A stretch of DNA of 64,000 nucleotides from Ideonella sp. Its GTDB lineage: Bacteria > Pseudomonadota > Gammaproteobacteria > Burkholderiales > Burkholderiaceae_C. The position numbers were made by a program, and so were the translations under genes. The notes beneath the pieces are model-generated. The model saw only the letters and a list, made by a program, of their open reading frames with translations. It searched no databases and was not told the DNA's origin. Each line of letters starts with the position of its first letter. The stretch's first letter is position 1. This document shows, one piece after another, positions 4,161-47,744 of this stretch. The DNA is taken from assembly GCA_015075165.1 (NCBI GenBank), contig JABTUY010000002.1:372001-436000 (forward strand), written 5' to 3'.

Positions 4161-5159
4161 ATGCTCGACTACCTCGTCTTCTTCGCGATCCAGGCGTCGA
4201 TCTTCGCCGTCGTCTGCCTCGGGCTGAACCTGCAATGGGGCTACACCGGGCTGTTCAACATCGGCGTCTCCGGCTTCTTTCTCGTCGGCGCGTACACGTT
4301 CCCGATCCTGTGCGGCCCGCCATACGCCGGCCACCTCGGCGGCTTCGGCCTGCCGTTCGGCGTGGGGCTGGCCGGTGCGCTCGTCGCCTCGGCGGTGGTG
4401 GCGTTCGTCGTCGGCATCCCGACGCTGCGGCTGCGCGAAGACTACCTTGCGATCGTCACGATCGGCATCGGTACCGTGCTGCAGCTGGTGGCGCTGAACG
4501 CGGCGTGGCTCACCAACGGCAGCCAGGGCATGCCGAGCATCCCGCGGCCGCTGGGCGGCTGGCCCGGCCCCGGCGCGGGCCGCAACCTGCTGATGCTGGC
4601 GATCACCGCCGGAACCGTGCTCGTCGTCTATGCGGCGCTCGAGGCGATGGTGCGCTCGCCGTGGGGCCGCGTGCTGAAGGCCATCCGCGAGGACGAGACC
4701 GCGGCGGCCTCGCTCGGCAAGAACGCGTTCGCGTTCCGCATGCAGGCGTTCGTGATCGGCTCGGCGATCATGGGCCTGGGCGGCGCGCTGTACGCGAGCT
4801 TCATCGGCTTCGTCAGCCCCGTGGACTTCCTGCCGATCGTCACGTTCCAGGTGTGGGCGATGCTGATCGTCGGCGGCAGCGGCAACAACAAGGGCGCCGT
4901 GCTCGGCGCCGTGCTGATGTGGGCGGTGTGGTCGGCCAGCGGCAGCGCGGCCAAGGCCCTGCTGCCGACCGACCTGCAGGTCAAGGGCGGCGCGGCGCAG
5001 ATCATCCTGATCGGCTTCGTGCTGATGCTGACGCTGGTGCTGCGCCCGCGCGGCCTGATCGGCGAGGAGGCGGTGGTGTCGCGCGAGGCCCAGGTGGTGG
5101 CGGTCGATAGGGAAGGGCAATCTTCAAAATCTATTGATTCAAATGAATCAATAGCATAG
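4161..5159 (+). CDS. livM: Branched-chain amino acid-type ABC transporter permease LivM
   Basis: This second membrane subunit has 332 residues and multiple hydrophobic helices, with the family motifs [24 protein letters not shown] and [16 protein letters not shown] and an ALR-type end (RPRGLIGEE). The ATG is preceded by GGAGG. The last roughly 25 residues after the usual RPRGLIGEE end are atypical. Their final codons, encoding [10 protein letters not shown], are formed by the AT-rich palindrome that probably belongs to the control region of the next gene. The livM 3' end and the ahpC promoter region therefore overlap. Confidence 0.9.
5131..5154. promoter_or_regulatory. Perfect 10-bp dyad upstream of ahpC (candidate OxyR/LysR-type operator)
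   Basis: The arms CTATTGATTC (5131-5140) and GAATCAATAG (5145-5154) are exact reverse complements around AAAT, with about 30% GC inside about 70% GC DNA. A possible -10 element GATAAT follows at 5166-5171, and the ahpC start is at 5221. The outer CTAT/ATAG tetramers recall OxyR half-sites, but their spacing differs from the E. coli arrangement. A LysR-family activator of ahpC is the best guess; a weak terminator stem for livM is the alternative, although no T-run follows. Confidence 0.5.
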
Positions 5160-5220
5160 TGGTTGGATAATGCGGACATGCCGGTTCTCCGGCACCCCTC
5201 GCAACCCGACGAAAGCGCAT

Positions 5221-5784
5221 ATGTCCATCATCAACACCCAGGTCAAGCCGTTCAAGGCCACCGCGTACCACAACGGCAAGTTCATCGAGGTCACCGAGCA
5301 GTCGCTCAAGGGCAAGTGGAGCGTGTTCTGCTTCTACCCGGCCGACTTCACCTTCGTCTGCCCGACCGAGCTCGAAGACCTGGCCGAGCAATACCCGCAG
5401 TTCAAGGATCTCGGCGTCGAGGTCTACGGCATCTCCACCGACACGCACTTCGCGCACAAGGCGTGGCACGACACGTCCGATGCGATCAAGAAGGTGCGCT
5501 ACCCGCTGATCGGCGACCCCACCGGCACGATCACGCGCAACTTCGACGTGATGATCGAGGAAGAGGGACTGGCGCTGCGCGGCACCTTCTTGATCAACCC
5601 CGACGGCGTGGTCAAGACCGCCGAGATCCACGACAACGGCATCGGCCGCGACGCCGGCGAACTGCTGCGCAAGGTGTTGGCCGCGCAGTACGTGGCCAGG
5701 CACCCCGGCGAGGTGTGCCCGGCCAAGTGGCGCGAAGGCGCGCAGACGCTGACGCCGTCGCTCGACCTGGTCGGCAAGATCTGA
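5221..5784 (+). CDS. ahpC: Alkyl hydroperoxide reductase subunit C (typical 2-Cys peroxiredoxin)
   Basis: This 187-residue cytosolic peroxiredoxin reduces hydrogen peroxide and organic peroxides. The peroxidatic cysteine is C47 in DFTFVCPTE and the resolving cysteine is C166 in GEVCPAKW, as in E. coli AhpC, whose length it matches. The ATG at 5221 gives the standard N-terminus [11 protein letters not shown]; an upstream in-frame ATG at 5170 would add 17 atypical residues across the promoter region. Its reductase AhpF is encoded 127 bp downstream. Expression is probably peroxide-induced through the dyad at 5131-5154. Confidence 0.97.
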
Positions 5785-5911: not shown

Positions 5912-7495
5912 ATGTTGGATTCGAACCTGCGCGACCAGCTGCGCGCGCACCTCGCGCGCGTGACGCAGCCGATCGTCATCGTCGCCTCGCTCGACGCCGG
6001 CGCCGCGTCGGCGCAGATGCGCGAGCTGCTGACGCAGATCGCCGAGTTGAGCGAGCGCATCGAGCTGCGCTTCGACGGCGAGCATGCGCGCCGGCCGTCG
6101 TTCTCGATCACCCGCGCCGGCACCGAGATGGGCCTGCGCTTCGCGGCGGTGCCGCTGGGGCACGAGTTCACGTCGCTGGTGCTGGCGCTGTTGCAGGCCG
6201 GCGGCGTGGCGCCGAAGGTCGATGCCGAGGTGGTCGAGCAGATCCGCTCGCTCGACGGCAACTTCGAGTTCGAGACCTGGATGTCGCTGACCTGCCACAA
6301 CTGCCCCGATGTCGTGCAGGCGCTGAATCTGATGGCGGTGCTGAACCCGCGCATCCGCCACACCGCGATCGACGGCGCGCTGTTCCAGGCCGAGGTGCAG
6401 CAGCGCCAGATCATGGCCGTGCCGATGGTGATGCTCAACGGCCAGCCGTTCGGCTCGGGCCGCATGGAGATCGGCGAGATCCTGACCAAGGTCGACCGCG
6501 GCGCCGCGGCGCGCGACGCAGCTCGCCTGGCGGGCAAGCCGGTGTTCGACGTGCTGGTGGTCGGCGGCGGCCCGGCCGGCGCCGCGGCCGCGGTGTACGC
6601 CGCGCGCAAGGGCATCAAGACCGGCATCGTCGCCGAGCGCTTCGGCGGCCAGACGCTCGATACGCTGGGCATCGAGAACTACATCTCGGTGTCGCACACC
6701 ACCGGCCCGCAGTTCGCCGCCGCGCTCGAGCAGCACGCGCGCGAGTACGGCGTCGACATCATCAGCGGCCAGCGCGTGCGCGCGCTCGAGCCGGCCCGCG
6801 GGCCCGGTGTGCCGGCCACCGTGGTGCTGGACAACGGTGCCGAGCTGAGGGCGCGCAGTGTCGTGCTCGCACCGGGTGCGCGCTGGCGCGAGGTGGGCGT
6901 GCCGGGCGAGCAGCAATACCGCAACAAGGGCGTGGCGTACTGCCCGCACTGCGACGGGCCGCTGTTCAAGGGCCGGCCGGTGGCGGTGATCGGCGGCGGC
7001 AACTCAGGTGTCGAAGCGGCGATCGATCTGGCCGGCATCGCGTCGCACGTGACGCTGGTGGAGTTCGCGCCGCAGCTCAAGGCCGATGCGGTGCTGGTGC
7101 GCAAGCTCGAGAGCCTGTCGAACGTGGCGATCGTGCGCAATGCGAAGACCACCGAGATCACCGGCGACGGCCAGCGCGTCGATGGCCTGCGCTACGTCGA
7201 CCGCGCCGGCGGCGCGGTGCACGAGGTGCCGGTGAGCGGCGTGTTCGTGCAGATCGGCCTGGTGCCGAACACCGAATGGCTGCGCGGCGCGGTGGAGCTG
7301 TCGTCGCACGGCGAGATCGTGGTCGATGCGCGCGGCGCCACCACGGCGAGCGGCGTGTTCGCCGCCGGCGATGCCACCACCGTGCCGTACAAGCAGATCG
7401 TGGTCGCTGCGGGCGAGGGCTCGAAGGCGGCGCTGTCGGCGTTCGATCACCTGATCCGCGAGCCGGCCCCCGAGCCGGCCCATGCGCCGGACTGA
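5912..7495 (+). CDS. ahpF: Alkyl hydroperoxide reductase subunit F (NADH:peroxiredoxin reductase)
   Basis: This 527-residue flavoprotein passes electrons from NADH to AhpC. The N-terminal tandem-thioredoxin-fold domain carries the disulfide C128-H-N-C131. The FAD-binding [10 protein letters not shown] is at about 218-227, the second redox centre C344-P-H-C347 lies in the thioredoxin-reductase-like part, the NAD-binding [10 protein letters not shown] follows, and the C-terminal FAD motif is VFAAGDATT. Cysteine positions agree with E. coli AhpF within one residue. The ATG at 5912 follows AGCGGAG and gives the family N-terminus [10 protein letters not shown]; an in-frame ATG at 5840 would add 24 low-complexity residues. 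Confidence 0.96.
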
Positions 7496-47539: not shown

Positions 47540-47744
47540 ATCCGCCTAGGGTTAACCCACGCGATGAAGCGAATACTTACATATTCGATTTGAACGAAAA
47601 CTTGTAGATTTCCCCGCAAGTCGTTATTTTTTAAGCACTTTTCTCTGATTCACGCTTCACATTGTCATTCAGAGATAAGTATTTGATTTCATTGATTTTT
47701 TCTTTCATTCACGGTTGACCGCACCCCTCAGGCTCCGTTACAGT
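47540..47744 (+). promoter_or_regulatory. AT-rich promoter island of the dcw cluster, with a sigma70-like promoter
   Basis: This is the only long AT-rich stretch of the window, with T-rich runs. It holds the palindrome GGGTTAACCC (47549-47558) and an inverted repeat CGAATA-N6-TATTCG (47570-47587). A promoter TTGACC (47715-47720), 18 bp, TACAGT (47739-47744) would start transcription near 47751, just ahead of mraZ. The remaining sequence may hold further promoters or architectural-protein binding sites. No gene is seen in 47320-47772. Confidence 0.6.

Follow-up and report, generated by a model that had tools for sequence, protein, structure and literature searches.

What controls a peroxide-stress gene when the DNA in front of it is also the end of a transporter gene? 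Within the 64,000-nucleotide stretch of Ideonella sp. DNA analysed here (the window), a livM-type permease gene (4161–5159, + strand, 332 amino acids; Pfam BPD_transp_2, with PRK11301 LivM as the best NCBIfam model, under its cut-off) is followed on the same strand, 61 nt further on, by ahpC (alkyl hydroperoxide reductase subunit C, 5221–5784, + strand; TIGR03137 AhpC, 344.6 bits against a cut-off of 272) and then by ahpF (subunit F, 5912–7495, + strand; TIGR03140 AhpF, 757.8 bits against 502.9). The original prediction placed the control site of ahpC on an AT-rich palindrome in the livM 3′ end and, finding half-site spacing that did not match E. coli OxyR, suggested a variant regulator. Comparison with the ahpC promoters of the family leads us to a simpler proposal, which we advance with considerable confidence: that this is an ordinary ahpCF promoter under OxyR control, with an operator that falls on the end of livM.

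An AhpC search of 150 family genomes returned a match from all of them at E ≤ 0.001, though many of these hits were weak and fell on other peroxiredoxins. Strong, near full-length matches (E ≤ 1.4e-76) numbered 120, that of the Ideonella genome included. Ninety of the 120 formed the training sample, from which one upstream region of 27 nt (L124) was dropped, leaving 88 and the window; the upstream regions of the remaining 30, none of them in training, served as a held-out test. The closest AhpC relative (G107, 89%) was left out because its contig begins 27 nt before ahpC. Of the 88 upstream regions from other family members, 86 were used to train a 37-position profile, with the window held out; it describes a site common to the family: a quartet of half-sites, ATAG-N7-CAAT-N7-ATnn-N7-CAA(T/A). 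In leave-one-out scoring, 82 of 88 upstream regions exceed the 99% shuffle level, 69 of them passing the 99.9% level as well; of the 30 held-out regions, 28 exceed the 99% level, 15 of these with at least 25 bits. From the end of the site to the start codon the median distance is 73.5 nt (interquartile range 67–86; 77 in the window). Two genus relatives carry the quartet (L218, 27.6 bits; L219, 33.4 bits); in a third, L220 (which is the L173 locus), the score is 5.9 bits and no site stands out clearly.

Some family promoters carry further elements. Eight of 51 (L129, L130, L142, L147, L150, L188, L202 and L217) have ATGCTGC between the OxyR site and the −10; the element, possibly the site of a further regulator, is absent from the window. 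In L131, some 65–85 nt before ahpC, the 20-bp perfect palindrome TCATTATCAATTGATAATGATTATC is followed by GATAATGATTATC, which we take to resemble a Fur box, and iron control of ahpC is possible in that genome.

The window has its own version of the family site at 5107–5143, which reads ATAG-GGAAGGG-CAAT-CTTCAAA-ATCT-ATTGATT-CAAA with exact N7 spacing throughout. Its 21.95 bits rank first among the 127,928 positions of the window on both strands, and were reached by none of 5000 shuffles of the 230-nt upstream region and by one of 5000 shuffles of the 100-nt core. Two predicted OxyR boxes make up the site: box 1 (IR1; 5107–5121, + strand; ATAG-GGAAGGG-CAAT), which fits a family profile built without the window, and box 2 (IR2; 5129–5143, + strand; ATCT-ATTGATT-CAAA), in N7 register and 22 bp from box 1 as in the relatives. 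The score is mid-to-low within the family, below the median and exceeded by 56 of 88 relatives in leave-one-out scoring; the inner bases of box 2 are weaker than consensus, with T at position 32 against A in ~99% of 51 sites. Elsewhere in the window, the best scores away from ahpC (~10.7 bits) fall in an AT-rich patch at 47626–47710. A second register at 5120 (18.2 bits) was dropped since its distance to the −10 is unlike that in the family.

Published OxyR sites, in the available text of PMC8787470, consist of two tandem ATAG-N7-CTAT units 7–10 bp apart, and two tandem N7 half-site pairs at such a distance are what 5107–5143 contains. The spacing of the predicted site is the published OxyR spacing, with CAAT-like words often replacing CTAT; the words are unlike those of E. 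coli and like those of the family. The spacing misfit in the original prediction arose because the site had been centred on the palindrome, too far 3′: the site shared with relatives begins 24 bp further 5′, and calls for no variant regulator, being an ordinary OxyR-type site common to the family. Other parts of the prediction are supported when sequences are compared: the control site of ahpC very probably lies in this region, and OxyR is its likely regulator.

The promoter geometry agrees with that of the family. A predicted −10 element, GATAAT, lies at 5166–5171 (+ strand), 22 nt past box 2, just where the original prediction had it and at the position of the family's −10; it has G for the first T of TAnnnT. 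Among sites scoring at least 25 bits, a TAnnnT hexamer stands 22 or 23 nt past the site in 45 of 51 from the training set and in all 15 from the held-out set, and when the window is aligned with four relatives, quartet and −10 line up in one register. The site ends beside the −35, and the interval between it and the −10 is fixed. If the transcript is assumed to start 8 nt past the −10, the three boxes of the window (the third is described below) are centred at −65, −43 and −34. Box 2 would abut the −35, a geometry that would favour oxidised OxyR acting as an activator. For P. xenovorans, a more than sixfold rise of ahpC1 with peroxide is described (PMC8859910, available text).

Downstream, the ahpC 5′ UTR contains a hairpin at 5179–5194 (TGCCGG-TTCT-CCGGCA), and a stem resembling CATCGGTTC...CCGGTG occupies a comparable position in the relatives L128, L175 and L186. 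As a conserved feature the hairpin was rejected: of 82 sequences, a set that includes the window, 17 have a stem score of at least 9, compared with 10.7% of shuffles, and the means are almost the same (3.44 and 3.13). At most it is a subset signal.

Is there an OxyR to read such a site? An E. coli OxyR sequence was searched against the Ideonella genome and gave 28 matches; the best scores 205.4 bits with 40% identity, and the runner-up 95.6 bits. The best match, an oxyR-like gene (L221:1501-2424; G000:C25:69507), keeps both redox cysteines as GHCFRDHVLEVC; its best NCBIfam model is OxyR, at 247.7 bits and so below the equivalog cut-off of 329. Directly after it comes a ferritin-like gene, read as Dps-type. 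The quartet is rare in this genome. Its strict pattern, with no mismatches, occurs once in 5.07 Mb, at ahpC (reversed control pattern, 0), and one mismatch adds a single other place, 89 nt upstream of a rubrerythrin-family gene. That OxyR-like quartet (L228:1501-1537; G000:C1:270298-270334) scores 18.7 and 16.8 bits on the two strands, with TAGGGT 23 nt past the site in the direction of the gene. The katG upstream region has no good profile site (best 3.4 bits, in L236), and before the Dps-type gene there is a weak OxyR-like match (L221:2445-2481, 2.7 bits, with TATCGT 23 nt downstream). These katG and Dps-type scores count against a tidy OxyR regulon.

A third box may complete the operator. 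The candidate box 3 (IR3; 5138–5152, + strand; TTCA-AATGAAT-CAAT) overlaps box 2 with a shift of 9 bp. At shift 9 the motif T-N11-A is present in the window and in 29 of 51 training sites, where the scan has a second peak at shift 5 (26 of 51). Among held-out sites of at least 25 bits it occurs at shift 9 in 15 of 15, at the adjoining shifts in none and at shift 5 in eight. The dinucleotide AT ends the third-box place in 28 of 51 training sites, against a mean of 2.6 and a maximum of 9 over 2000 spacer permutations; with the eight ATGCTGC rows removed it does so in 20 of 43 (permutation maximum 8), and in the held-out sites of at least 25 bits in 12 of 15 (permutation mean 0.92, maximum 6). 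Across the full set of 28 held-out sites that pass the 99% level, T-N11-A at shift 9 is found in 17 and the terminal AT in 15. In L218 and L219, the two genus relatives with a clear quartet, the third-box place does not end in AT. The held-out counts of both motifs strengthen the reading, and a third OxyR box is likely. More tentatively, and at somewhat less than even confidence, we propose that family ahpC promoters commonly carry an extra OxyR box, overlapping the activation box and set 9 bp beyond it, so that OxyR slides between repression when reduced and activation when oxidised, and that here boxes 2 and 3 form a near-perfect 24-bp palindrome that also encodes the LivM C-terminus.

What, then, is the palindrome? 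The perfect dyad of the original prediction is real, with arms of 11 bp instead of 10: CTATTGATTCA-AA-TGAATCAATAG, at 5131–5154 (+ strand), has a 2-nt centre and spans most of boxes 2 and 3. It is not a product of chance. Dyads of this kind (arms of at least 11, gap of at most 6) appeared in 3 of 20,000 dinucleotide shuffles of 5100–5200; the window holds seven, against a mean of 1.2 in 30 shuffles, and 5131–5154 is the sole one of the seven with at least 60% AT, a class with no member across the 30 shuffles. In the liv gene region there is also a strong GC-rich inverted repeat, at 2266–2304, with 18-bp perfect arms and a 3-nt loop.

The palindrome as such is not a conserved unit: it is found with at most one mismatch in 6 of 150 family genomes, the Ideonella genome included, and the matches in the other five all lie away from that genome's ahpC. 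Its inner 22 bp, TATTGATT-N6-AATCAATA, has one exact copy in the 5.07-Mb genome and one other place at three mismatches (reversed control, 1). Among 119 oriented ahpC upstream regions of 160 nt, window included, a dyad with arms of at least 11 and a gap of at most 6 occurs in the window and L204 only, and that of L204 differs in sequence. By these comparisons, the palindrome is private to the window. A loose form of the pattern matched at least 120 stretches in a public genome collection, many from AT-rich genomes. Relative to the predicted operator, the left arm lies mostly in box 2, and the right arm has CAAT at 5149–5152, the exact end of box 3 if the shift is 9 bp. The centre of the palindrome is at 5142.5; those of the boxes are at 5114, 5136 and 5145.

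Its position in livM is as the original prediction had described: the reading frame passes through the palindrome to a TAG stop at 5157–5159, and 17 codons at its end are shared with the predicted OxyR operator region. A LivM search of 120 family genomes found seven with E ≤ 1e-60, the Ideonella genome included. The two closest homologues (79% and 75% identical) end 317 codons past the residue-3 point, at about residue 319, so that the window protein, at 332, is longer by about 13 residues, and the extra codons lie inside the predicted operator. No LivM match was found upstream of the other 118 ahpC genes, in ~600 nt for 90 of them and 1500 nt for 28. Among the genomes compared, the overlap of livM and operator is seen in the Ideonella genome only. 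The simplest history, we infer, is that a liv operon became joined to an ahpC promoter that already existed, after which the livM frame read on to the next stop.

A dyad this far from chance, at 3 in 20,000 local shuffles and with a centre that coincides with that of no OxyR box, invites the thought that a different dyad-recognising regulator, such as a repressor over the −35, has its site laid over that of OxyR. We consider this unlikely: the palindrome has one copy in the genome and is not at ahpC in relatives, and its arms run across boxes 2 and 3, a part of the operator common to those relatives. Nor does an FNR-type site fit. Such a site reads TTGAT-N4-ATCAA, and the spacing at 5134–5151 is N8, on which ground this candidate was rejected. 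Less probable still, by a good distance, is a role in RNA, with the palindrome as a 3′ hairpin that stabilises or terminates the liv operon message. The RNA could fold into a 9-bp stem with a 4-nt loop (−12.2 kcal/mol over 5125–5175, z −2.9, with 2 of 200 shuffles as good) ending 2 nt before the livM stop codon, but it would do so within translated codons, and the match to family ahpC promoters would be left unexplained. An intrinsic terminator was rejected outright, the hairpin being AT-rich and followed by CATAGTGG rather than a T run, with no terminator-like site called there.

There is also the prospect that the likeness to the family site is an accident of an AT-rich patch and that ahpC is transcribed from the liv operon. 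In its favour, the site score is under the family median, and livM and ahpC lie 61 nt apart on one strand. We give this reading hardly any weight, the least of the alternatives: the shuffles that did as well number none and one of 5000, the −10 lies at the right distance and the site is unique in the genome.

Among the nearest known counterparts of such a promoter is the E. coli oxyR-oxyS operator, which in the available text of PMC5002191 has three 15-bp ATAG-N7-CTAT boxes, placed by phylogenetic footprinting at −66, −44 and −35, the third overlapping the second and serving repression. The window shares its 22-bp spacing from box 1 to box 2 and has a candidate box 3 9 bp further on, at similar positions relative to the promoter. 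It differs in that its half-sites are often CAAT/ATTG-like rather than CTAT/ATAG, its target is ahpC, and the predicted site lies inside the upstream coding sequence. For E. coli OxyR in a non-oxidisable form, protection of two groove pairs one helical turn apart is described (PMC2881104, available text). Among betaproteobacteria, gel shifts show OxyR of Burkholderia thailandensis on the ahpC promoter, and it is reported to act there as a repressor (PMC6626918, available text); OxyR binding is predicted for the window's betaproteobacterial ahpC as well. In B. thailandensis, AhpD is the electron donor (same source), whereas in the window ahpC is followed by ahpF. The available portions of PMC6626918, PMC8787470, PMC2881104, PMC8859910 and PMC5002191 give no letters for a betaproteobacterial ahpC site. 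Near counterparts, too, are the 118 other family ahpC upstream regions, with the same quartet and the same −10 spacing; in contrast to the window they have no LivM match in the ~600 or 1500 nt covered upstream, and the palindrome is the window's alone.

The site, its conservation in the family, the spacing to the −10 and the oxyR-like gene can be read directly from the sequence, and together they suggest how the promoter might work. Two OxyR dimers would occupy the operator, one on box 1 (5107–5121) and one on box 2 (5129–5143), and OxyR oxidised by peroxide would position RNA polymerase at the −10 hexamer GATAAT (5166–5171). Box 3 (5138–5152), overlapping box 2 at the 9-bp shift, would reach over the −35 region, and reduced OxyR, if it behaves as at E. 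coli oxyR-oxyS, would occupy boxes 1 and 3 and keep the promoter off. The palindrome would fall where boxes 2 and 3 overlap, and the final livM codons would double as OxyR binding sequence. Binding, redox switching, the sign of regulation, the start site and the history of the livM overlap are the conditional parts of this scheme.

With a canonical OxyR layout predicted from a point 24 bp before the palindrome, the locus no longer needs a variant regulator. It offers instead a compact example, open to experiment, of a peroxide-stress operator that may lie within the codons of a transporter gene. More broadly, with the family alignment the redox-slide model of OxyR can be put to the test at ahpC, beyond the E. 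coli oxyR-oxyS promoter.
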